This document shows positions 2 through 21,787 of a stretch of 21,787 bases of DNA, piece after piece. Position numbers and translations under genes: made by a program. Source of the stretch: a virus; IMG/VR virus record IMGVR_UViG_3300028829_005746, positions 1 to 21,787 of that record; one strand, 5' to 3'. The notes under the pieces are model-generated. The model did no database searches and was not told the DNA's origin. It was given only the letters and a program-made list of their open reading frames with translations. The first letter of the stretch is position 1. The number at the start of each line of letters is the position of its first letter.

Positions 2-667
2 AAAACTATCGGAGAAGTCACCTACCTCAAAGGTGATGGTCTGCTGAGTCGTTTGAAGGAGGAGTATGATCTCGCTGAAAACTTAGGAGTAGAGTCAAAC
101 GACCTCATCGAAACCGCCCGAGGTCTGACTAATATTACCTTTGAGGACAAGACTCAGGTAAGAATCAAAGAGAACTCGAAGTTAGTTATCGATGATTTCG
201 TCTACGATACAAAACCAAAGTCAGTCAATCGTTTGGCTCTTCGAGTCGCGATTGGGACGGTTCGATACGCCAGTGGAGGCATCGCAAAGAACAACACTAA
301 GGATGTTGACATACAGACTCCGGTAGCGACTATTGCGGTTCGCGGAACAGAATTCTCGATGGTTGTCAATGAGATCGGAGGCTCAACAGTGATACTTCTA
401 CCGAACTTTGATGGAACGGTAGGAGAGATCGAAGTAATCACACTTGCGGGATCGGTAGTAATGAACCAACCCTTTATGGCGACTCACGTCGATAGCGCCA
501 ACAGTATTCCGACTCGACCAGTTGTGTTGGACATTACCGAAGACTTGATCTCAAATCAACTGATCGTCTCTACTCCACCCGAACTCCTAGAAGCCGAGGA
601 AGACGTTCAAAAGGCGGTCGATAACATTCTCGATATGGATTTCCTTGAGTTTAAAGAACTAGAATAG
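2..667 (+). CDS. FecR-domain protein, 5' partial
   Basis: The reading frame is open from base 2, so the gene starts upstream of the window; the TTG at 53 is not needed as a start because the residues before it (TIGEVTYLKGDG) already look like the beginning of a FecR domain. The FecR-type core follows: an iETarG segment, tFEDkTqVRIkenSkLvIDDFvYD, and then TPVATIAVRGTEF, which is the most typical stretch. FecR domains are periplasmic or surface sensors in bacteria; this copy has no anti-sigma N-terminus visible here. It stops at TAG 665-667, but the -1 frame stays open from 655 to 903 and continues in a similar style, so the true protein may be longer. It lies just upstream of a CHASE2 cyclase, a pairing I know from bacterial genomes. 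The domain call is firm; the role in a phage is unknown. Confidence 0.8.
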   Translation, partial: KTIGEVTYLKGDGLLSRLKEEYDLAENLGVESNDLIETARGLTNITFEDKTQVRIKENSKLVIDDFVYDTKPKSVNRLALRVAIGTVRYASGGIAKNNTKDVDIQTPVATIAVRGTEFSMVVNEIGGSTVILLPNFDGTVGEIEVITLAGSVVMNQPFMATHVDSANSIPTRPVVLDITEDLISNQLIVSTPPELLEAEEDVQKAVDNILDMDFLEFKELE

Positions 668-903
668 TTGCGGATGCATTTGTTGTAGATACCGTAGAGA
701 GAATTGGGTTTGATAAGAAGACACAAACTTTTGGATTGGTGGATCGTAACGAAGGAACGCAAACGATTCAACGATTCGTCGGAGGAGACATATCAATCAC
801 ATATCCTCTTGGCCTTGCTCCGACCATAAATATTAATCAGTATGGGCAAGAGGCCATGCTTAATTTAGGAAACGATAATGAGTTCTATATTGAACAAAAT
901 TAA
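655..903 (+). CDS. Frame-shifted curlin-like tail of the FecR protein (or separate short ORF)
   Basis: This stretch is open in the frame one base behind the FecR frame. It has no good ATG before the last quarter (a GTG exists at about 739), so it reads best as the continuation of the upstream protein after an indel or frameshift near 655-667. The protein contains GFDKKTQTFGLVDRNEGTQT and, at its end, ININQYGQEAMLNLGNDN followed by EFYIEQN. That end has the Q-x-G spacing, the G-x-x-N step and the final I-x-Q of curlin-type repeats. No standard X-XXY-YYZ slippery heptamer is in the correct phase at the junction, so I favour an indel over programmed shifting. The stop overlaps the cyclase start by 26 bases, which suggests translational coupling. 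Confidence 0.5.
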   Translation, partial: RTRIVADAFVVDTVERIGFDKKTQTFGLVDRNEGTQTIQRFVGGDISITYPLGLAPTININQYGQEAMLNLGNDNEFYIEQN

Positions 904-2890
904 ATCTCCTATTCTCTCACTAATATTAGTGACTGCAATTGGAGTAGCAAACTTCGATGTGATCGAGTCTTTTCGATTAAGATTCTTTGATCTCATCATT
1001 ACGGAAGTCCCAAGAGAAGTTGAGCCCAGTCAGATTGTTTCAATCGATGTTGGAGACGATACTATCGCAAGACTAGGACAATTTCCATTCCCTCGAAACG
1101 AGTATGCAGCGATCATTGAGACTCTCTATCGAAATGGTGCAGGTTTAGTGGTATTCAATATCGCTATGACTGAGCCGGATCGATTTGGTCAAGATGAGTA
1201 CCTTGCAACCGCAATTGAAGGAATGCCCGTGGTTCTTCCGTATCTTGTTGGAAACTCCGATTACACGCCAGATCCTATTGGAGTGTCAATGATCGGAGAT
1301 GTGGATCCAAACGATGTAGTGCCAAGTTTTTCTGGTATCATTCCAAACGTTGAGCCAATACAGAGTGCGGCGTTTGGTAAAGGAATATCAGTCACTATGT
1401 CAGAGTTGGATGGAGTGGTTCGAAGATTACCGATGGTCATATCGGTCAACGATGAACTCTATCCTTCTATTGTACTTGAAACACTTCGAGTCGCATCAGG
1501 AGATCCTTCTTTTCAAATCAAAACAAACGTTGGGGGAGTAGAAGCGGTTCGTATACCTAGTTTCTCTACCATTGAAACAGACCCTTTAAGTCGTGTTTGG
1601 ATCGACTGGCAACAATCTGTTGAGTCAATCAACTTCGAGGATGTCAAAGACGGAGTTCTGAATGGGCGTATCGCAATCATTGGTATGACTGCGGGTGGTA
1701 TTACGAATCCAGTCGCTAGCGCCCTTGGAGAAGTCTTTCCGCATCACGTACAGTCTATGGCACTCTCTACTGCGATCAGTGGAACTAATATCTCCCGGCC
1801 GGACTGGATGTATCCCGCCGAGATTGGAGGAATGATTCTTCTCTCGATTCTTTGTCTGATTGTTTCTCGCTACTGGACTCACGGATATGTCTTTCCGATA
1901 GTGGTGAGTGCGATCTCGGGTTTAGGAGTAGTTTATATTTTCCTTGAAGAACAACTATTGATCGATGCGGTCTTTCCTCTTCTTGGACTCTCAGCGGTGG
2001 TAGGACACAACTATGTGGTCAAGTTTTTGACAGAACTGAAACTGAAACTTCAGATCAAAAAGCAGTTTGGTACGTATCTCTCTCCCGCATTGGTTGAGAA
2101 ACTTCAAAAGAATCCAGAACTTCTGCGGCTTGGTGGTGAAACAAGAGACCTCTCCATACTCTTTACGGATGTAAGAGGATTCACTGCGATCTCAGAGCAC
2201 TATGGTGAGAATGTACAGGGACTGACAATGATAATGAATCGATACATGACGGCAATGACAGAACCTATTCTGAATAACGAAGGAACACTGGACAAGTACA
2301 TTGGTGACGCACAGATGGCGTTTTGGAATGCTCCCTTGGATCAGATTGATCATGCTATGCGATCAGTAACTACTGCACAGGAGATGCTCGAAAGGTTAGA
2401 TCGTTTTAACGATGAGATCACGGCCGAAGGAATACCGGCGTTTGGTATGGGTATTGGAATTAACACCGGAAGTGTGGTAGTCGGTAATATGGGATCGGAT
2501 CAAAGGTTCGATTACACTTGCCTTGGCGATAGCGTAAACCTTGGCGCTAGACTTGAAGGTCAAACAAAGAACTATGGTGTTCGACTTCTTCTTGGAGAGA
2601 ATACCGCCGAGAAAGTAAGAGGGTTAGTGAGTCTCATGGAACTTGATTGCATCGCTGTCAAGGGAAAGACAAAAGGTGTTCGAGTCTACACGATTGGAAA
2701 GACAACAGAGGCCCACGTCTTACTTCTTAAATATTACTATGCAGGTAAGTGGAAAGCGGCACTTGAACTCATCGACTGGTGTATAAAGGAGACTGATCAT
2801 CACGAGGAATACTACCGCATTATGGAGAAGAAACTTCGATTCGGTTGCCCCGATAATTGGGATGGTGTGAATCGATTGACAAGTAAGTAA
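878..2890 (+). CDS. Membrane CHASE2-domain adenylate cyclase (class III)
   Basis: Predicted to make cAMP from ATP at the inner membrane. A single N-terminal membrane segment (about residues 8-27) precedes an extracytoplasmic CHASE2 sensor domain (about 40-300, with FDliitevpReve and SIDvGDdtiarlGqfPfPR). Three closely spaced membrane segments follow (about 307-380), then a class III catalytic domain (about 420-610). All catalytic positions are present: metal-binding D431 (ILFTDVRGF) and D477 (KYIGDAQMAFW), purine-specifying K473 and T547 (DYTCLGD), and transition-state N554 and R558 (GDSVNLGARLEG). Lys with Thr is the class IIIb adenylate cyclase pattern; a guanylate cyclase would have Glu and Cys. 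The C-terminal ~65 residues resemble the TPR-like tail common in CHASE2 cyclases. The start overlaps the end of the preceding ORF. A sensory cyclase inside a T4-type phage genome is unusual. Confidence 0.93.
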   Translation: MSSILNKIKSPILSLILVTAIGVANFDVIESFRLRFFDLIITEVPREVEPSQIVSIDVGDDTIARLGQFPFPRNEYAAIIETLYRNGAGLVVFNIAMTEPDRFGQDEYLATAIEGMPVVLPYLVGNSDYTPDPIGVSMIGDVDPNDVVPSFSGIIPNVEPIQSAAFGKGISVTMSELDGVVRRLPMVISVNDELYPSIVLETLRVASGDPSFQIKTNVGGVEAVRIPSFSTIETDPLSRVWIDWQQSVESINFEDVKDGVLNGRIAIIGMTAGGITNPVASALGEVFPHHVQSMALSTAISGTNISRPDWMYPAEIGGMILLSILCLIVSRYWTHGYVFPIVVSAISGLGVVYIFLEEQLLIDAVFPLLGLSAVVGHNYVVKFLTELKLKLQIKKQFGTYLSPALVEKLQKNPELLRLGGETRDLSILFTDVRGFTAISEHYGENVQGLTMIMNRYMTAMTEPILNNEGTLDKYIGDAQMAFWNAPLDQIDHAMRSVTTAQEMLERLDRFNDEITAEGIPAFGMGIGINTGSVVVGNMGSDQRFDYTCLGDSVNLGARLEGQTKNYGVRLLLGENTAEKVRGLVSLMELDCIAVKGKTKGVRVYTIGKTTEAHVLLLKYYYAGKWKAALELIDWCIKETDHHEEYYRIMEKKLRFGCPDNWDGVNRLTSK

Positions 2891-3193: not shown

Positions 3194-3787
3194 ATGAATC
3201 TATTTATTCAAAATAAGTACACGAGATGGTATATGTCTATCATCTCAAATCCCAATAGAGGGAATGAAACCTACACCGAATCTCATCACATTATACCGAG
3301 ATCTTTGGGTGGAGAAGAGACAATAAATCTAAGTGCTCGCGAGCATTTCATTTGTCATTGGTTGTTGATTAAAATGGTCGAAGGTAAGACTGCTCGTCAT
3401 AAGATGGAAAACGCATTTGCGAAGATGTGTTTTCAAGATCGATATGGTTATCGATACATCAATTCAAACGGATATAAGATATGTCGTGAAAGGATAGCAC
3501 CCGAGATTGGTCGTAGAGTTGGTTTGTGGAACAAAGGGAAACCTAAACCTTCCAGTCAGATCGAGAAGATGAAGGCTGGAATGAAAGGGAAGCATAAAGG
3601 GAAACGATGGTGCAGCAAGGATGGAGTTAGTCAAAGAGTTCCTCAAGAAAGATACGACGAACTCTTAGAGGAAGGTTGGGCGCCAGGACGCAGTTTGAGT
3701 GATGAGTCTCGTCAAAAAATGAGAGAAAATGGACTAGCTCACAAAAATAACTTAAATTACTTTCCTCCGGCAGCTGGCGTAAAATAA
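3194..3787 (+). CDS. Free-standing HNH homing endonuclease
   Basis: Predicted site-specific DNA nuclease of the HNH family. The motif is ESHHIIPRSLGG (H31, H32) followed by N45 and EHFICH (H51, H55), which gives the metal and catalytic residues of the fold. Residues about 110-140 (GLWNKGKPKPSSQIEKMKAG and the basic KGKHKGKRW) resemble NUMOD3-type DNA-binding modules; LSDESRQKMRENG near 168-180 looks like a second such piece. At 197 residues the length is normal for phage HNH genes. It has its own late promoter and leader hairpin, and no intron or intein is evident around it. Its last 31 bases overlap the 3' end of the convergent membrane-protein gene, so it appears to have settled exactly at the end of that gene. 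Confidence 0.88.
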   Translation: MNLFIQNKYTRWYMSIISNPNRGNETYTESHHIIPRSLGGEETINLSAREHFICHWLLIKMVEGKTARHKMENAFAKMCFQDRYGYRYINSNGYKICRERIAPEIGRRVGLWNKGKPKPSSQIEKMKAGMKGKHKGKRWCSKDGVSQRVPQERYDELLEEGWAPGRSLSDESRQKMRENGLAHKNNLNYFPPAAGVK

Positions 3788-4242
3788 AAACCTATAATTG
3801 CTGCCAAAGTGGTGATGCTGACAAGAGAGATGTGCCCCGTCGTGATTGTGGTGGTGATGTCGGTTTGGGCTGGGATATCGATGAGTCCCCAGATGAACTT
3901 ATATCCTGTTTTTGACTCGGGAGGGGTAAAGGTGACGAGGGGGACTGTTGGCCAGATTGTGCAAAGTACCGAGATGACGAAAAAGTTGCACATCCCGATA
4001 ACAGCCAAGAAACGGCGAGTAGCGCGAGTAAACATCGCAGTTTCTTTATCAGGTTCTCCGAAGAGGTTCTTTTGTAGTTCTGCATTTGCTCTTGATACCG
4101 CAAGTTCCCTTGCTAGTTCCCTTTTTTCCGCTGCCGCTTTCTTTTCAGCACCTGCGGCGACAATTCCACCAACCATTTTGAGGATCGACCCCATTCCGGT
4201 GGCGCCAAGTGTCGATACGAGCATTGTGATGAGTCCAAACAT
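3757..4242 (-). CDS. Holin-like 3-TM membrane protein
   Basis: This 161-residue protein has a hydrophobic, glycine-rich N-terminal segment (about 2-31), a charged Lys/Glu/Arg helix (about 33-60), and two further membrane segments (about 78-102 and 135-155). The layout fits the three-membrane-segment phage holins (the GTA-type holin family), which release lysin through the inner membrane. No catalytic motif is present. The start ATG lies 7 bases after a late-promoter-like box on the minus strand, so the message may be nearly leaderless. An out-of-frame lipoprotein ORF lies inside the gene. The plus-strand ORF opposite is not credible. Confident for a membrane protein, moderate for holin. Confidence 0.65.
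   Translation of the reverse strand: MFGLITMLVSTLGATGMGSILKMVGGIVAAGAEKKAAAEKRELARELAVSRANAELQKNLFGEPDKETAMFTRATRRFLAVIGMCNFFVISVLCTIWPTVPLVTFTPPESKTGYKFIWGLIDIPAQTDITTTITTGHISLVSITTLAAIIGFYFTPAAGGK
3792..4085 (-). CDS. Possible nested Rz1-like outer-membrane lipoprotein
   Basis: Read in another frame inside the holin-like gene from the ATG at 4085 (a TTG lies further up at 4103). The N-terminus is basic (IKKLRC), then comes a hydrophobic core LLALLAVSWLLSGC ending in a proper lipobox (L-S-G-C), then a Ser/Pro/Gln-rich tail (SGQQSPSSPLPLPSQKQ). Outer-membrane spanins of the Rz1 type are small, proline-rich lipoproteins that are often nested out of frame in another lysis gene, though usually in the inner-membrane spanin. 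No clear ribosome site is visible, and chance in an overlapping membrane-coding frame is a serious alternative. Confidence 0.3.
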   Translation of the reverse strand: MQNYKRTSSENLIKKLRCLLALLAVSWLLSGCATFSSSRYFAQSGQQSPSSPLPLPSQKQDISSSGDSSISQPKPTSPPQSRRGTSLLSASPLWQQL

Positions 4243-8792: not shown

Positions 8793-9701
8793 ATGTCATT
8801 CGAAAAACTAAAAGCAAATCGACTTGCGTCGATAGAAAAGTTGGTAAACGCCGCCGAAAGCGTCTCTGAAAAGAAGTCTTATGGAGACGACCGAGAGTGG
8901 AAACCAACAGTTGATAAAGCAGGTAATGGTTATGCCGTTATCCGCTTCCTACCATCGGCGACTGCCGAAGATCTTCCTTGGGTTCGTTTCTGGGATCATG
9001 GTTTCAAGGGGCCAACCGGCAGGTGGTACATTGAGAGATCTCTTACTTCAATTGGTCAACAAGATCCATTGAGTGAGTTGAATTCTCAGTTGTGGAACTC
9101 AGGAAGGGAAGAGGACAAGGAATTGGTTCGTCAACGCAAGCGTCGTTTGCATTACGTATCAAACATTCTTGTGATCTCGGATTCATCGAATCCATCAAAC
9201 GAAGGTAAGGTCTTTCTTTACAAGTATGGAAAGAAGATCTTCGATAAGGTTATGGATGTGATGCAGCCTCAGTTCGAGGATGAGAAACCTATCAACCCAT
9301 TTGACTTCTGGGGTGGAGCGAACTTCAAGTTGAAGATTCGTAATGTTGAAGGTTATCGCAACTACGATAAGTCAGAGTTCGATTCTGTCACCGAACTCTT
9401 TGAAGGTGATGAAGACAAGTTGAAGAAGGTCTATGACAATCTTCATGGATTGAATGAGTTCATCGATCCGTCAAGTTACAAGTCTTACGCTGAACTCAAG
9501 AAGAAGTTATATGAGGTACTTGGTGAAGAAGATGTAGCCAACACCTTTTCGGTAGAACAAACTACCGAGCTCAATGAAACCCGTGAAGAGCGAGTGGACG
9601 CACCCGCACCGAGGAGCGAGGATCAGAGTGTTAGTTCATCAAGCAATGATGAAGGTGAGGAAGACACCTTGGCATATTTCGCCAAGTTGGCTCAGGACTA
9701 A
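8793..9701 (+). CDS. 32: Single-stranded DNA-binding protein gp32
   Basis: Coats single-stranded DNA in replication, recombination and repair. The basic N-terminal region (FEKLKANRLASIEKLV) is the cooperativity domain. The OB-fold core has FWDHGFKGPTGRWYIERSLT, KRRLHYVSNILVISD, NEGKVFLYKYGKKIFDKV, NPFDFWGGANFKLKI and GYRNYDKSEF, all strongly typical. The C-terminal ~50 residues are acidic and Ser/Glu-rich and end DTLAYFAKLAQD, the usual protein-interaction tail. The zinc cysteines of T4 gp32 (C87 and C90) are replaced: here the site reads QQDPLSELN, with D91 and S94, although H69 remains. At 302 residues the length matches T4 (301). A strong terminator follows. Confidence 0.97.
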   Translation: MSFEKLKANRLASIEKLVNAAESVSEKKSYGDDREWKPTVDKAGNGYAVIRFLPSATAEDLPWVRFWDHGFKGPTGRWYIERSLTSIGQQDPLSELNSQLWNSGREEDKELVRQRKRRLHYVSNILVISDSSNPSNEGKVFLYKYGKKIFDKVMDVMQPQFEDEKPINPFDFWGGANFKLKIRNVEGYRNYDKSEFDSVTELFEGDEDKLKKVYDNLHGLNEFIDPSSYKSYAELKKKLYEVLGEEDVANTFSVEQTTELNETREERVDAPAPRSEDQSVSSSSNDEGEEDTLAYFAKLAQD

Positions 9702-11479: not shown

Positions 11480-11657
11480 GGTTTTTCTTTAACCTTTCGT
11501 TTTCCTCTCTTATCCAATCCAATAACATAGAAACATATATTTGCCTTTCCCACGGAATCATATTATTCAATTCTGATAAACTATAATTATGATGTTGCAT
11601 CATGGAAAAATTAGTTTGATAGTGATTGGCGAGTGAATCGTGAGAAAGGCAAATTAG
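11472..11657 (-). CDS. T-extension of the tail assembly chaperone, reached by -1 frameshift
   Basis: This frame is open from the slippery site to the TGA at 11474-11472 with no stop between (61 codons). It begins LICLSHDSLANHYQTNFSMM and continues QHHNYSLSELNNMIPWERQI, then YVSMLLDWIREENERLKKNHG. An internal ATG-ATG at 11603-11598 could also start a free 43-residue protein. The conserved-looking text begins upstream of that ATG, which argues for production as a fusion to the gp26-like protein (229 + 61 = 290 residues). It fills what would otherwise be a 174-base gap before the tape measure start. Function inferred: recruits tape measure and tail-tube subunits, as T domains do in lambda-type G-T. 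Confidence 0.8.
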   Translation of the reverse strand, partial: LICLSHDSLANHYQTNFSMMQHHNYSLSELNNMIPWERQIYVSMLLDWIREENERLKKNHG

Positions 11658-12343
11658 AAAAAAGATTGGATTCCTTCTAATGTGTAGGTGTTCTCATGTC
11701 CACACTCCGAACATTTAAAATTAACGGTGTGTTTTAGTGTTGGTTGATTTTTTATAAAATTCTGAATCTCTTCTAAATTTTTATGAGTAAAAGAATCGAT
11801 GAATGCATCTAGTTCCTCTTTGCTGACATTATTGACAGAATATACATTATCTTCATCATATATGGTTTCGATTACTGTAGAGATAATTGAGTTGATATCA
11901 TTATCATCTATGTTTCCCAATCTCTTAATTGAAACTGGAGAGAGCGTTATACCCACACCTTTAGACAATTCTATATTATTATCAGGAACTGTCTCCGGAA
12001 AATCAACTGCAACATCATTGAGGTTGACAGTCACTTTATTCTTAGCTCCACATTTTTTACACGACAAAGAAAATTCACTAGACTCTCCTACACTCTTTTC
12101 TCGCAATTTGAGAAGAACGTATTCTAAATCGTAAGTCATTAAAGAATCCACATCTATCTTTCCAAATGTACATTCTTTAATTATTTCTTTTATTGATGAT
12201 TCTATTTGAGAGGCATCATTTGATTCTTGAGCAATCATAAGTATCTTCTCTTCTTTTACGAGAAAAGGTCGATACTTAAGTTTCTTTTTGGTCGATGGTA
12301 CAACTAAATTGTACGTCGGCGTTTCTAATACTGGTAATGGCAT
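11654..12343 (-). CDS. 26: gp26-like tail/baseplate assembly chaperone (G protein)
   Basis: A 229-residue protein of the T4 gp26 family, annotated as baseplate hub assembly protein and probably a tape measure chaperone. The start MPLPVLETPTYNLVVPSTKK with LKYRPFLVKEEKIL is typical. Two CxxC pairs, C95/C98 (SLSCKKCGAKNK) and C211/C214 (FKCSECGHENTYTLEG), should form a zinc site. The centre (about 140-200) is helical and acidic. The last codons are the slippery heptamer and the stop, so a fraction of ribosomes should make the longer G-T fusion. It lies 3 bases after the tail-tube-like gene, in one minus-strand operon with the tape measure. Confidence 0.85.
   Translation of the reverse strand: MPLPVLETPTYNLVVPSTKKKLKYRPFLVKEEKILMIAQESNDASQIESSIKEIIKECTFGKIDVDSLMTYDLEYVLLKLREKSVGESSEFSLSCKKCGAKNKVTVNLNDVAVDFPETVPDNNIELSKGVGITLSPVSIKRLGNIDDNDINSIISTVIETIYDEDNVYSVNNVSKEELDAFIDSFTHKNLEEIQNFIKNQPTLKHTVNFKCSECGHENTYTLEGIQSFF
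11657..11663 (-). promoter_or_regulatory. -1 programmed frameshift site (U UUU UUC)
   Basis: The last codons of the gp26-like gene read TCT TTT TTC TAA on the minus strand. T-TTT-TTC is in the right phase (X XXY YYZ) and lies directly before the stop. A -1 slip continues straight into the open T frame. I see no strong downstream hairpin. Confidence 0.8.
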
Positions 12344-12346
12344 AAT

Positions 12347-13036
12347 CTATATCAATCTATTAAGCACGCCTCCAATTACATTTTTAACACCACCGATGGA
12401 GGAGGCAATGGATCCTTCGGTTTCATAATCTTCATATGTCAGTGTGACATTCAATTTTTGTGTTTCTGTAGAAGAGTTATTTAGTTCAATTGTATTTACT
12501 GTTACTGGAAAAGCGTTTTTTAGCTTAACACCGTACACCGGAACATTCCTTTGATTTAACTGTTGTATAGTTACATCACTCACATATTCTTTTTTATATG
12601 CAACATTATATGTTTCGGAATTGACAATCATATCAAGCCAACGATCAAAAAGTTTCTTCATATGATAATCGTTGGTCAGGTGAAAGACAAAGTTCACATC
12701 TTCATTAAAGTATCCTTGAGGAATCTTTACATTTTGCCGATAATTTAAATGTTGTTTCTCCAGAGTTTGTATCTGACGGCCGGGCAAAGAACAACTCTCA
12801 CAAAGAATAGCAACGTCTCTTGGATCGTTTACGAATTGACCTGGCCCAAAGTTACCACTCAAAAGGTTTGATGCTGCATTCTGCAAATCCAAATTCAGAA
12901 GAGTCTGAGAAGGTGGATTCATAAAAATTGCAAAACGATTTGCCGGAGCCAATCCACTCCTTCGGCCAATGACTGACTTGAAGTCGTCGATTGTGGTTGG
13001 ACTTATGAGACCTTGAACTTTGTTGACTAAAGACAT
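12347..13036 (-). CDS. Tail-tube-fold protein (gp54/gp19-like)
   Basis: A 229-residue structural protein with the T4 tail-tube pattern: a short helical start, APANRFAIFMNPP, the CESCSLPGRQIQTLEKQHLN block (the loop typical of gp19, gp54 and relatives), YRQNVKIPQGYFNEDVNFVF, a helix around FDRWLDMIVNSETYNVAY, and C-terminal strands (VPVYGVKLKNAFPVTVNTIE) that end with the YEDYETEG turn. It is longer than gp19 (163 residues) and shorter than gp54 (320), so either the tube initiator or another tube-like baseplate protein is possible. Its start overlaps the stop of the broken gene upstream (TAATG). Confidence 0.7.
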   Translation of the reverse strand: MSLVNKVQGLISPTTIDDFKSVIGRRSGLAPANRFAIFMNPPSQTLLNLDLQNAASNLLSGNFGPGQFVNDPRDVAILCESCSLPGRQIQTLEKQHLNYRQNVKIPQGYFNEDVNFVFHLTNDYHMKKLFDRWLDMIVNSETYNVAYKKEYVSDVTIQQLNQRNVPVYGVKLKNAFPVTVNTIELNNSSTETQKLNVTLTYEDYETEGSIASSIGGVKNVIGGVLNRLI

Positions 13037-13990: not shown

Positions 13991-13998
13991 TATTTATG
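13991..13998 (-). promoter_or_regulatory. Late-promoter-like box CATAAATA before gp4
   Basis: One mismatch from TATAAATA on the minus strand, overlapping the gp48 start codon. A second weaker box (AATAAATA, 13994-13987) overlaps it. Together with 13969-13976 this makes a divergent late promoter region of about 30 bp. Confidence 0.45.
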
Positions 13999-15012
13999 GC
14001 AAATCCAATTAGACTCTCCAGTATAGGAAAACAAGCAAATGCGTTAGTAAGAAACGCACAATCGCAAGCTACTTCTTCTATAGATGCTGTAAAATCCTCT
14101 CTTGGGTTCAGTAAAAAGAACGCGGCCGCCAACTACCTCTCGTCTCAATCTACAGACTCATATGTTTTCCCAATCGATTTGAGGGGTCAACCAAATGTAA
14201 GCACTGTAAAATTTACCGCCTATGATAAGGGAACGGATGGAGTGAAACAACATTCTATCTTTTTCCCCTGTCCCGCAAACATATCAATCAATGATTCGGC
14301 TACATACAATATTGTAGATCTTGGTACTGTAGGTGGAGCCGTCTCTTCGGCAATGCAAAAAAGCGACAGTCTTGAGAGTTTTGCAAAAAATATCGCGGGG
14401 GAAGCAAATACTGCAAAACAAAATTTTAAAACCGGCCAAGTTTTAAACGCTGCGATACAGAAAGCTCCGCTAATACCCGATTCGATCAAGGGAGCAAGTA
14501 AACTTGCAAGTAGGTCACTCACTAATCCAAATAGCAACACAACCTTCAGTGGAAACGCTATCAGATCATTCACCTTTTCTTTTAAGATGGTTGCAAATTC
14601 AGCGGAAGAAGCAGAATTGGTTCGGAAAATTCATTCAAAGTTTCGAAAGTTTGCCTACGCAGATGCCGCAGGAACATTCCTAACATTTCCACCAACTTGG
14701 ACTATTACCTTCTACAACGGAAAGGGAGAAGAAAATGAATTCATTCCCAAAATATTTTCGTGTTATCTTGTGTCAGTTGAATCTACTTTAAATTCCACAA
14801 TTAATATGTTTCATGCGGATGGAGCCCCACTTGAAGTAGATATTAACATTTCATATCAAGAAACAAGAGTTCTAAATCGTAGAGATATAATTGATTTAGA
14901 AGAAGGAAGTCTTGGAATTAGTAGAGGAATTAACGAAAATGGTGTACCAAAAACATCTGGAATAGTCGATGCAAATACTAAACCGACTGAACAACTTGGG
15001 AGATTTGTATAA
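13996..15012 (+). CDS. 48: Baseplate tail-tube cap gp48
   Basis: gp48 caps the baseplate hub and nucleates the tail tube. The 338-residue protein has a helical N-terminus, then IDLRGQPNVSTVKFTAYDKG, IFFPCPANISINDSATYNIV, a variable helical insert (about 115-180, Ala-rich), AIRSFTFSFKMVANSAEEAE, a KIHSKFRKFAYADAAGTFLT helix, FPPTWTITFYN and a final NMFHADGAPLEVDINISYQE block. These match the T4 tail-cap family as I know it, and T4 gp48 is 364 residues. The gene leads the plus-strand tail operon, and its stop overlaps the gp53 start (TAATG). Confidence 0.82.
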   Translation: MANPIRLSSIGKQANALVRNAQSQATSSIDAVKSSLGFSKKNAAANYLSSQSTDSYVFPIDLRGQPNVSTVKFTAYDKGTDGVKQHSIFFPCPANISINDSATYNIVDLGTVGGAVSSAMQKSDSLESFAKNIAGEANTAKQNFKTGQVLNAAIQKAPLIPDSIKGASKLASRSLTNPNSNTTFSGNAIRSFTFSFKMVANSAEEAELVRKIHSKFRKFAYADAAGTFLTFPPTWTITFYNGKGEENEFIPKIFSCYLVSVESTLNSTINMFHADGAPLEVDINISYQETRVLNRRDIIDLEEGSLGISRGINENGVPKTSGIVDANTKPTEQLGRFV

Positions 15013-18450: not shown

Positions 18451-21306
18451 ATGCCTGATTTAAAAGTAACAGATGATTCACCACAAAGAGTTGCATACGT
18501 TGACAATTCTCCGGAGACTTCAGTATACACTTTACCAAGAGTTGCCGGTACAAGTGGTCAAGTAATTACAATTGACGCCAATGGTGATTGTAATTTTCAA
18601 AATGTTGGATCAATTGGATCGCTTGGTTCGATTGAGTTTAGGGCTCTTCCCTACTACGATGAAGCGGGTGCCGCTGGTTCAGATTCACCAGCTGATCTTT
18701 GGGATCCTACCGGAAAAAGTATTACTCCCGAAGTCTATTTTAACTTAAGTCAAGTTAGTTACTCGGCGACGCCAACCTCAAACACTTGGAGATATAAAAA
18801 TGGCTGGAATGGTGGACTGACTTTTACTGGTGGTACACAAAATACTGGAGTCACTCAACCAGCTTTAGAGTTTGCTACATATGATGGAACGACTTTAAAT
18901 CCTCAAGTAACTGGAAGTTTTATTTATAGAGACGCTGGAGGTACTGATCATGAATTCGCATTTACGGTAAACTGGATTCTCATTCAAGAAGGTGCTGCCG
19001 GTTCGGATGGTGCTGTCGGAATTTCTGCAAGGGCTGTAAATTTAACCGCAACTGATCAGACTATTGAATACGATACAGATGGAACTAATCCGGATCCTTC
19101 AATTGTAACCATAACCGCTACTGCCGTAAATGCCTCTGAAAGTGAAGATGTCTATTTTGAGTTCTTTGTAAATGACGAAAATCAGGATGTTTCTCCCGCG
19201 GCCGCTGGAGACAATTCACCATTTACAAATTCCTTTACTCTTACTTCGGATGCGACCATTGGTAATCCCAAAAAGATTGAAGTACAGATAAGAGAGGGAT
19301 CTCTGAGCAACCCAATCCTTGCTCGTGATCAAATGACAATCTTTGGTTTAAAACAAGGATCGGACGCAATCACAATTAGTTTTACTAACGATAGTCATGT
19401 GCTTCCAACTACGTCCAACGGAACTGTCGATTATAGCAATTCCGGAACTGATATTGAAGTTTTCGAAGGAACCAATCAATTAGTTTACGACGAAGATTCT
19501 CCACATGCATTATCTAGTTATCGTGTTACCGCTGTCGGATCAAATGTCGATGTAGATTCTTCGCCAACATTTGATTCCGAATTTCTGACATCACCCTTAA
19601 GTCTATACTCACCAGAGGTTGGATATGTGAGAAGATATGGTGAGGTACACAATATGTCAGCTGATAGTGCTTCGATTGAATTTACTATTACAATAAGAGA
19701 TAGTGAAGGTAAAGAAAGGATTTTCACAAGAAAACAATCTTTAGCAAAATCACTTCAAGGTGCTGAAGGTTCTTCGGGTCAGGGTGGAAGAACAGTAAGT
19801 TTAAGTGCCGGAGATCAGATATTTGAATACAATACGGCCGGGCAAACTCCGAGTCCTGCAAATACTGTTATAACTGCTCAAGCATTTAACACTGAAGAGT
19901 CTCCAATTGGCGACCTTTTCTTTGAGTTCTTTGTTGATGATGAACCACAAGGATCTGGCCCAGCAGATCTGACGGGTGATAATTCTCCTCATATCGCAAC
20001 CTTTACATATACTCCACGGGCAGATATTGGAGATATGCCTGATAAGATTGAGGTTGAAATACGAGAAGGAAGCGCCGCGGGGCCCGTTATAGCAAGGGAT
20101 CAGTTCACGGTGTTTGGTGTACAACAGGGTTCAGACGCTATTACCATTGCGATGACCAATGAAGGACACACTGTTAATACAGGCCCAAGCGGAGATTCTC
20201 CTTCTACGTATCCCGGCTCTGGTACACAATTTAATGTGCTTGAAGGAGCAACCCTGCTAGAATATGATAACTCGCCAACGTATGATAATGGATCTTTTCG
20301 AATAAGCGCCGACGCGAATAGTAATATCACAATTGGTACTGCTACTACACCCAATGCTACCACAAGAGAATATGGTGATCATAGTAATATGGTCAACAAA
20401 TCTGAAAAAATTGTTTATCAAATTACTGTTAAAAGAGCAGATGGTAGAGAACAAAGTTTTACTCGATCACAATCTCTTTCAAAATCTATTGATGGAGAGG
20501 AGGGAAATGATGCAAAAACCGTTAGACTCACGGCAGCTGACTATGTGATTGAGTACGATCAGAGTGGAAAGAATCCGAATGTTTCTGGTGATTCTCCCTC
20601 AGAGGAAATTATCCTCACGGCAACTGCTCAAAACTTTACTGATCCATATTTCAAATTTACGGGTGATATCACCGAAGAGACTTCGTACACAAATGGAACT
20701 TCCGGTGATGATGCCGATACTTTTACATTTTCAGTTCCAGCCGATTATTCATCTACTCCCAAAGTTATTCGAGTGGGTGTTGCGGAAGCAAGTGCAGATA
20801 CTGTTGAAATCGCATTTGATTCAATCACAATCGCATCCGTTAAAGAAGGATCCGGAGCGATATTTGTTCAACTTACCAACGATTCTCATGTTTTTCCCGC
20901 AGACTCAGATGGTGCTGTAACAGACTTCACTGGAAGTGGAACAAATATAGAAGTTTATGAAGGTGCAACTCAACTTGATTACGACGGTTCAGGTACTACT
21001 GCTGGTCACTTTACTGTAACAACGGATGGTGGAACAAACATAACACCTGGCGGTATTACTGATAGTGGTAATGTCGCCGTAGTCGCACCCGCTTCTGGTG
21101 GAGTTGCCGACAATGTCAATACTAGTAAAATAGTATTTACTATCTCGGGAAAAAGAGGTAATGGGGATGCTTTTTCTATTACAAAGAACCAAACATTCTC
21201 TAAGGGCACGACAGGTGCAACTGGAGCTACTGGATCGCGAACTGTAAAGGGAATACTTTACTACATTAACAGACACCGCTATAGCTCAAGATTTATCCGT
21301 TTTTGA
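18451..21306 (+). CDS. Large modular tail fibre / adhesin, 5' part
   Basis: A 951-codon frame. After an N-terminal virion-attachment region come three tandem modules of about 233-257 residues, starting near residues 190, 447 and 689. Each opens with a VxLxAxDxxIEYDxxGxxP strand, contains QGSDAITI-type and EVxEGxxxLxYD segments, and ends with FTRxQSLxKSxxGxEG. The modules look like Ig/FN3-type domains common in phage fibres. Next comes a short collagen-like GTTGATGATG run (about 919-928). After TVKGILYY the frame falls into low-quality sequence and stops, while frame 2 carries on. The gene starts 6 bases after gp5 in the ATAAATTATG context. Likely role: host recognition at the baseplate centre. 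Confidence 0.85.
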   Translation: MPDLKVTDDSPQRVAYVDNSPETSVYTLPRVAGTSGQVITIDANGDCNFQNVGSIGSLGSIEFRALPYYDEAGAAGSDSPADLWDPTGKSITPEVYFNLSQVSYSATPTSNTWRYKNGWNGGLTFTGGTQNTGVTQPALEFATYDGTTLNPQVTGSFIYRDAGGTDHEFAFTVNWILIQEGAAGSDGAVGISARAVNLTATDQTIEYDTDGTNPDPSIVTITATAVNASESEDVYFEFFVNDENQDVSPAAAGDNSPFTNSFTLTSDATIGNPKKIEVQIREGSLSNPILARDQMTIFGLKQGSDAITISFTNDSHVLPTTSNGTVDYSNSGTDIEVFEGTNQLVYDEDSPHALSSYRVTAVGSNVDVDSSPTFDSEFLTSPLSLYSPEVGYVRRYGEVHNMSADSASIEFTITIRDSEGKERIFTRKQSLAKSLQGAEGSSGQGGRTVSLSAGDQIFEYNTAGQTPSPANTVITAQAFNTEESPIGDLFFEFFVDDEPQGSGPADLTGDNSPHIATFTYTPRADIGDMPDKIEVEIREGSAAGPVIARDQFTVFGVQQGSDAITIAMTNEGHTVNTGPSGDSPSTYPGSGTQFNVLEGATLLEYDNSPTYDNGSFRISADANSNITIGTATTPNATTREYGDHSNMVNKSEKIVYQITVKRADGREQSFTRSQSLSKSIDGEEGNDAKTVRLTAADYVIEYDQSGKNPNVSGDSPSEEIILTATAQNFTDPYFKFTGDITEETSYTNGTSGDDADTFTFSVPADYSSTPKVIRVGVAEASADTVEIAFDSITIASVKEGSGAIFVQLTNDSHVFPADSDGAVTDFTGSGTNIEVYEGATQLDYDGSGTTAGHFTVTTDGGTNITPGGITDSGNVAVVAPASGGVADNVNTSKIVFTISGKRGNGDAFSITKNQTFSKGTTGATGATGSRTVKGILYYINRHRYSSRFIRF

Positions 21307-21787
21307 TAGTAGTAGTAACTACAGATTGTTGAATACCACTGACGGCACTTCGGGTATTATAACTGGTTCTTCCAATGCTGACAATTTGACTGCCGGAATC
21401 AATTTCGACGCTGGAGATGGATATATAATTCGTCCAGAACCAGATATTGGAACAGCGGCTACCTATGATTTCACCACGACAGGCGATGCTGCATTCGATG
21501 AATTAGATTCTCGATGGAGTTTAACACCACCCGAAGTTCAGGTAAATAAATCTTACCAAAGATATTGGGAAGTAGAGTTCAGCGCTACTGAAACAGGAGT
21601 CACAGGAACCGGATCAATATCATTTGGAACTCCTGTTCCTTCTATTCGATTTGGAGTAAATATACAATCAGATAATTTCCAAGCAGGTTTAGAGGGTTGG
21701 CAAATCAAAAGAGATAGTGGCGATGCAGAGTTCAATAATATAATTGCTCGGGGATCACTAAAAGGTGGAAAGACCGGCCCAAGAGAT
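21248..21787 (+). CDS. Tail fibre, 3' part in a shifted frame, runs off window
   Basis: Open in the +1 frame from 21248 to the window end. It reads TLTDTAIAQDLSVFDSSSNY directly after the point where the upstream frame loses sense (about 21257-21265), then a beta-rich stretch, and finally GLEGWQIKRDSGDAEFNNII with ARGSLKGGKTG. That GWxIxRdGxAEFnN-type segment is a hallmark of the C-terminal shaft of phage central fibres (J-like/DUF1983 type). So it belongs to the same protein as 18451-21306. An indel near 21260 is the simplest cause. No typical slippery site is present for a programmed +1 shift. Confidence 0.8.

Follow-up and report, generated by a model that had tools for sequence, protein, structure and literature searches.

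A FecR-CHASE2 adenylate cyclase pair at the end of a phage curli module: an incomplete copy on a T4-type viral contig and the anatomy of FecR in its relatives

Judged by gene content and order, the first two genes of the viral record IMGVR_UViG_3300028829_005746 (21,787 bases, analysed at full length and hereafter called the window) correspond to the 3' end, that is the last two genes, of the published phage curli module. They code for a FecR-domain protein and a predicted CHASE2 adenylate cyclase, and comparison with related sequences suggests that FecR links the curli fibre to the cyclase. The window itself adds one member to an already described system, incomplete and possibly misassembled, and the interest lies more in the comparative anatomy of FecR across the relatives. 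The features of the module in the window are as follows.

2..667, + strand, FecR-domain protein (PF04773, E 3.9e-10; phrog_37870, E 3.1e-68; alignment with the near relatives L002-L006)
664..665, + strand, junction at which 97 nt of the relatives' sequence are missing, a frame-shifting deletion or an assembly error
665..903, + strand, out-of-frame remnant of the FecR C-terminus, with its stop codon at 901-903
878..2890, + strand, predicted CHASE2 class III adenylate cyclase, complete, 670 amino acids (phrog_35576, E 2e-220)
935..1852, + strand, CHASE2 domain, amino acids 20-325, predicted periplasmic (PF05226, E 1.7e-30)
2144..2692, + strand, class III cyclase catalytic domain, amino acids 423-605 (PF00211, E 1.5e-15)

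A FecR domain in the first open reading frame and a CHASE2 cyclase with six named active-site residues had been proposed in an earlier reading made from the sequence alone (the sequence-only reading); the PF04773 match in ORF 2-667 and the PF05226 and PF00211 matches bore this out. All six residues were found at the positions given, i.e. the metal-binding aspartates D431 and D477, the substrate residues K473 and T547 and the transition-state residues N554 and R558, which make up the complete class IIIb set. Among 25 relatives, D431, K473, D477 and R558 were invariant and T547 and N554 were at least 90 % conserved. Hydropathy peaks at residues 10-31, 310-332, 336-357 and 351-369 show the CHASE2 domain to be flanked by an N-terminal transmembrane segment (about 10-31) and by C-terminal transmembrane segments from about residue 310, the layout of CHASE2 receptors. 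The cyclase profile matched solved adenylate cyclases, e.g. CyaB (3r5g). In class III cyclases the Lys/Thr pair points to ATP as the substrate, and the window cyclase is predicted to make cAMP. No phage-encoded cAMP receptor (PF00027) was found in 13 related records, so any effect of cAMP would go through the host.

In the window a FecR gene is followed by the adenylate cyclase gene on a phage genome, with FecR truncated. Its 5' end lies beyond the contig edge and a premature stop occurs at 665-667, leaving 221 amino acids; in the near relatives FecR is a single ORF of 351-363 amino acids. The 97 nt absent after position 664 were present in L005 and aligned in L002, L003, L004 and L006. As 97 cannot be divided by three, its loss shifts the reading frame, so that FecR ends at the stop codon 665-667 and its curlin-like tail (about 832-900) lies out of frame, in the -1 frame of the window; in every complete near relative the tail is in the FecR frame. 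The start codon of the cyclase lies within the codons of the FecR tail, an overlap of 26 nt. The curlin-like tail of the sequence-only reading was thus recovered in frame in the complete relatives and out of frame in the window, and its description of the pair as intact had to be abandoned, as FecR is cut at its 5' end by the contig edge and truncated at its 3' end by the 97-nt loss. A programmed -1 frameshift joining FecR to the tail was ruled out, since in the relatives a single frame runs through and the sequence is 97 bases longer. The junction sequence was absent from all other viral contigs searched, and may therefore be private to this genome as a real mutation, or may be an assembly error. 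In either case the window contig encodes no intact FecR with a curlin-like tail; a real deletion would probably mean that the proposed coupling of FecR to the cyclase is lost in the window genome.

Matches to Pfam and PHROG families showed T4-type gene content across the record, including the following genes.

3194-3787, HNH homing endonuclease, just 3' of the cyclase (phrog_655, E 7e-29)
8793-9701, gp32
11654-12343, T4 baseplate protein
12347-13036, gp19-like tail tube
13996-15012, baseplate tail-tube cap

A T4-type carrier had been assumed before, and gp32, the T4 baseplate protein and the gp19-like tail tube on the contig agree with it. The best match of the window gp32 in the phage collection was 'Phage C48C1' (Kyanoviridae, 62 % identity). 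The downstream phage genes were common to the window and to L002, L004, L005 and L006, which come from other metagenomes. Since the same genes follow in these four near relatives, a chimeric join to bacterial DNA, which the sequence-only reading had raised as an objection to itself, was rejected and the module was taken to be phage-borne. No tRNA genes were found in the 21,787-base window, and no RNA families around the module.

Several further observations concern the region 3' of the module. The insertion site of the HNH endonuclease is occupied by about 310 nt in L004 and by a ThyX-like gene (12031-12690, identified by eye) in L002. A 161-amino-acid protein with two to three hydrophobic segments (3757-4242, - strand), possibly holin-like, is kept in the relatives. 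It is overlapped in another frame by an ORF (3792-4103, - strand) that resembles an Rz1-type o-spanin in having a lipobox, LLAVSWLLSGCAT, and a tail rich in Pro and Ser; the lipobox is present in five sequences, yet variation is still greatest at third codon positions in the main frame. The tail-fibre ORF (18451-21306) has a frame break at about 21240-21330 and resumes at 21326 in a different frame. In the relative L187 the reading frame stays open across this region, which makes an indel or assembly error in the window likely.

At least 599 relatives of the cyclase were recovered by scanning viral contigs, and 80 of these were retained. csgF, csgG, curlin and FecR were all present in 46 of the 49 retained viral loci whose upstream sequence extends over 6 kb or more; the three exceptions had only 0.9-1.2 kb of downstream sequence and may be inverted arrangements like those of L066, L076 and L081. 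In L066, L076 and L081 the csg-FecR genes are found 3' of the cyclase and face the other way, on the strand opposite to it, the linkage being kept despite the inversion. The genes upstream of FecR in the relatives were identified as csgF (PF10614), csgG (PF03783) and curlin (Pfam). The window begins inside FecR, and in the near relatives L002, L004 and L006 csgF, csgG and curlin lie directly upstream, where the sequence-only reading had thought csgG and csgF might be found. Its suggestion that the parts work as one system gains from their being a conserved gene cluster in the relatives. Among the 12 long records examined for a T4-type portal gene, 7 had one, the remaining 5 being fragments or other phages. 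Two records, L022 and L041, carry the module on T4-type genomes of 236 and 337 kb, far larger than the pelagiphages originally described.

A phage curli cluster was reported by Zaragoza-Solas et al., and from 2020 onwards its function has been described as unclear (PMC7029224). Wittmers et al. (2022) described the pelagiphage order csgF-csgG-curlin-FecR-(curlin)-adenylate cyclase with alphaproteobacterial affinities, noted that bacterial curli operons include neither FecR nor the cyclase, and discussed an iron link, i.e. an iron-type regulatory role, for the phage FecR (PMC9599517). With hundreds of viral relatives and this published module, the pair is not unusual in phages, as had been supposed. 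The same genes in the same order are found in the cultured phages HTVC008M (KC465899, 7562-13807) and Melnitz (MZ577097), which carry the same operon (PMC9599517); their FecR and cyclase are 46-47 % and 36-37 % identical, respectively, to those of the window. Unlike the pelagiphage module, that of the near relatives of the window has one curlin gene and no second curlin between FecR and the cyclase; FecR overlaps the cyclase start by 26 nt in these relatives, and the window FecR is truncated. The second curlin-like gene of HTVC008M (L082, 10638-11960) encodes a PA14 domain (PF07691, E 2.7e-6) ahead of the curlin repeats, which suggests a fibre-borne adhesin.

The FecR domain PF04773 was present in all 50 full-length phage FecRs. 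The FecR of the near relatives has a signal-peptide-like stretch at amino acids 4-23 followed directly by beta-rich domains, and a cytoplasmic N-terminal anti-sigma domain before a transmembrane helix is absent from it. Sequence comparison of FecR with solved structures gave no convincing match, and AlphaFold models of two phage FecRs (38 % identical to each other, mean pLDDT 70 and 74) were compared by fold. Both models matched the cell-surface-signalling domain of PupR (6ovk; Z 15.3 and 15.4, rmsd 2.6 over 135). The N-terminal domain matched PDB 5ix9, 'Cell surface anchoring domain', with Z 7.3 and 7.4 (below 8) and rmsd 2.0-2.1 over 73 of 76 residues, a match that exceeded the next ones in both models (5.1 and 5.5) and was also among the Foldseek matches. 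The entry 5ix9 represents the domain that anchors the RTX adhesin of Marinomonas primoryensis. In these two models the N-terminal domain of phage FecR may resemble the anchoring domain of a surface adhesin, a likeness that goes beyond the papers cited here. The retention_LapA profile NF033682 had no match in the 50 phage FecRs. At the C-terminus both models have an acidic, low-confidence linker followed by a predicted series of 6-7 short strands at intervals of about ten residues.

The C-terminal tail was compared with a profile built solely from curlin C-termini, at a threshold of 6 bits. Scores above 6 bits were obtained for 52 % of 52 phage FecR C-termini versus none of 462 other ORFs; none of the 32 bacterial FecRs passed the threshold, and 3.8 % of the shuffles matched for composition did so. 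The similarity between FecR and curlin peaks in the last 14 residues. The sequence-only reading had named FecR, CHASE2, cyclase and Curlin_rpt as the profiles to be searched; the first three were matched, and Curlin_rpt (PF07012) had no match in any of the 50 phage FecRs at E 1 or better. Because the Pfam family is unmatched and profile-profile support for the tail against curlin is weak, the tail is called curlin-like here and not a curlin repeat by family definition. Solved curli structures were not among the fold matches of either FecR model, which is no evidence either way. By these profile scores, a curlin-like strand ends the phage FecRs and is missing from bacterial FecRs, a second point beyond the papers cited here.

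The nearest chromosomal cyclases found were mostly from Alphaproteobacteria (32-37 % identity). A FecR gene lay directly 5' of the cyclase in 25 of 75 bacterial loci with enough upstream sequence, the same arrangement as in the phage pair. The FecR ORFs at the bacterial loci ranged from 236 to 2462 amino acids (260 to 2462 for the adjacent ones), and the scanned partners include cadherin-like, laminin G (LamG), RTX and VWA domains. One bacterial FecR partner, L142, matched NF033682 at 7.2e-5, short of the curated cut-off. In Campylobacterota, too, CHASE2 cyclases have been reported in clusters with outer-membrane proteins that carry a FecR domain (PMC9239204). The bacterial pairs differ from the phage pair in that their FecRs, among those scanned, are often fused to adhesin domains and lack curlin-like C-termini, and no csg genes were found near 80 bacterial cyclase loci, within the sequence around them. 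Conversely, csgG loci most like the phage ones were found 5 times in 385 alphaproteobacterial genomes, with csgF in 5/5 and curlin in 4/5, and neither FecR nor a CHASE2 cyclase occurred within about 8 kb of these five. FecR matches were present in 67 of the 385 genomes and, at the same cut-off, in none of the csgG-bearing ones. As none of the five csgG loci has a FecR or CHASE2 cyclase within that distance, the idea that the phages took over the complete module from an alphaproteobacterial curli operon was rejected. In the sampled bacteria, as far as domain content and gene neighbourhood indicate, FecR-CHASE2 accompanies surface adhesins, often giant ones, a third point beyond the papers cited here, and the phage module joins the pair to a curli system.

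Two other bacterial systems invite comparison. In the Burkholderia biofilm operon (PMC5192318) and the Pseudomonas PA4035 type, a FecR protein adjoins a CHASE2 membrane receptor and is linked to biofilm formation; there the output runs through a histidine kinase with a response regulator, the FecR protein contains LysM and no curli genes are described. LapA-type retention offers a similar concept, in which a plug in the periplasm keeps a surface structure in place and is linked to nucleotide signalling at the inner membrane (PMC13090378, PMC12077191); the possible resemblance of the FecR N-terminal domain to 5ix9 would be a further likeness. The phage FecRs do not match NF033682, however, CsgG is not a type I pore and the cyclase is not a c-di-GMP receptor. 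A literature search linking FecR, the retention module and adhesins found no paper.

From gene order, domains, catalytic residues and the tail similarity we infer binding, a direction of signalling, fibre formation and a use of cAMP as follows. FecR would be exported and located in the periplasm beneath the CsgG/CsgF pore, where its curlin-like tail could dock to the fibre as an anchor or nucleator. The body of FecR would contact CHASE2, so that secretion or attachment of the fibre would set the activity of the cyclase, and cAMP would act on host receptors during infection, e.g. to keep the host attached or aggregated. We consider it plausible, though a little short of probable, that periplasmic FecR acts as anchor or reporter of the curli fibre and alters cAMP by way of CHASE2, the signalling being deduced from the observed anatomy. 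Clumping was not observed with Melnitz (PMC9004378), which counts against this model. A wider proposal is that phage FecR is a composite periplasmic anchor and sensor, not an iron regulator, whose curlin-mimicking C-terminus binds the fibre and reports to the CHASE2 cyclase, the phages having rewired an adhesin-sensing cAMP switch onto type VIII secretion; in this full form it must be considered doubtful.

The CsgG/CsgF outer-membrane pore could instead be a device for lysis timing or uptake (secretin- or pinholin-like), gated or timed by FecR and the cyclase, with no functional fibre. The curli cluster of Melnitz has been discussed as such a pore (PMC9004378, Buchholz et al.), and a cell wall hydrolase (PF07486) is encoded about 3 kb downstream in the window. 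A bare pore needs no curlin, yet curlin genes occur in nearly all modules, and the curlin-like end of FecR would be equally superfluous, which makes this explanation unlikely. About as improbable is that the FecR tail is an export or targeting signal common to curlins (e.g. for CsgG/CsgF) and does not dock to a fibre. FecR would then serve simply as a partner or regulator that is secreted, with the cyclase sensing another cue, e.g. iron or envelope stress. This would account for the similarity being strongest in the last 14 residues, common to curlin C-termini, and would fit the classical role of FecR-domain proteins as regulators and the suggested iron link (PMC9599517). The models, however, show a stack of 6-7 short strands, more than a terminal motif, and the FecR of the relatives lacks an anti-sigma domain. 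The known secretion signal of E. coli CsgA, moreover, is N-terminal.

The module might also be decaying in the window genome, with FecR a pseudogene and the cyclase a remnant. The out-of-frame 97-nt deletion, absent from five near relatives, is what decay would produce, but the cyclase is complete with all its catalytic residues and the junction was not seen elsewhere. The other break in frame, at about 21.25 kb, points to assembly error and is a reason for caution about the contig, and decay is accordingly the least likely of these explanations.

Returning to FecR as a link between fibre and cyclase, its curlin-like tail, its possibly adhesin-anchor-like N-terminus and the association of its bacterial counterparts with giant adhesins together offer a testable alternative to an iron-type regulator, namely that these phages may couple the sensing of a surface fibre to cAMP during infection.
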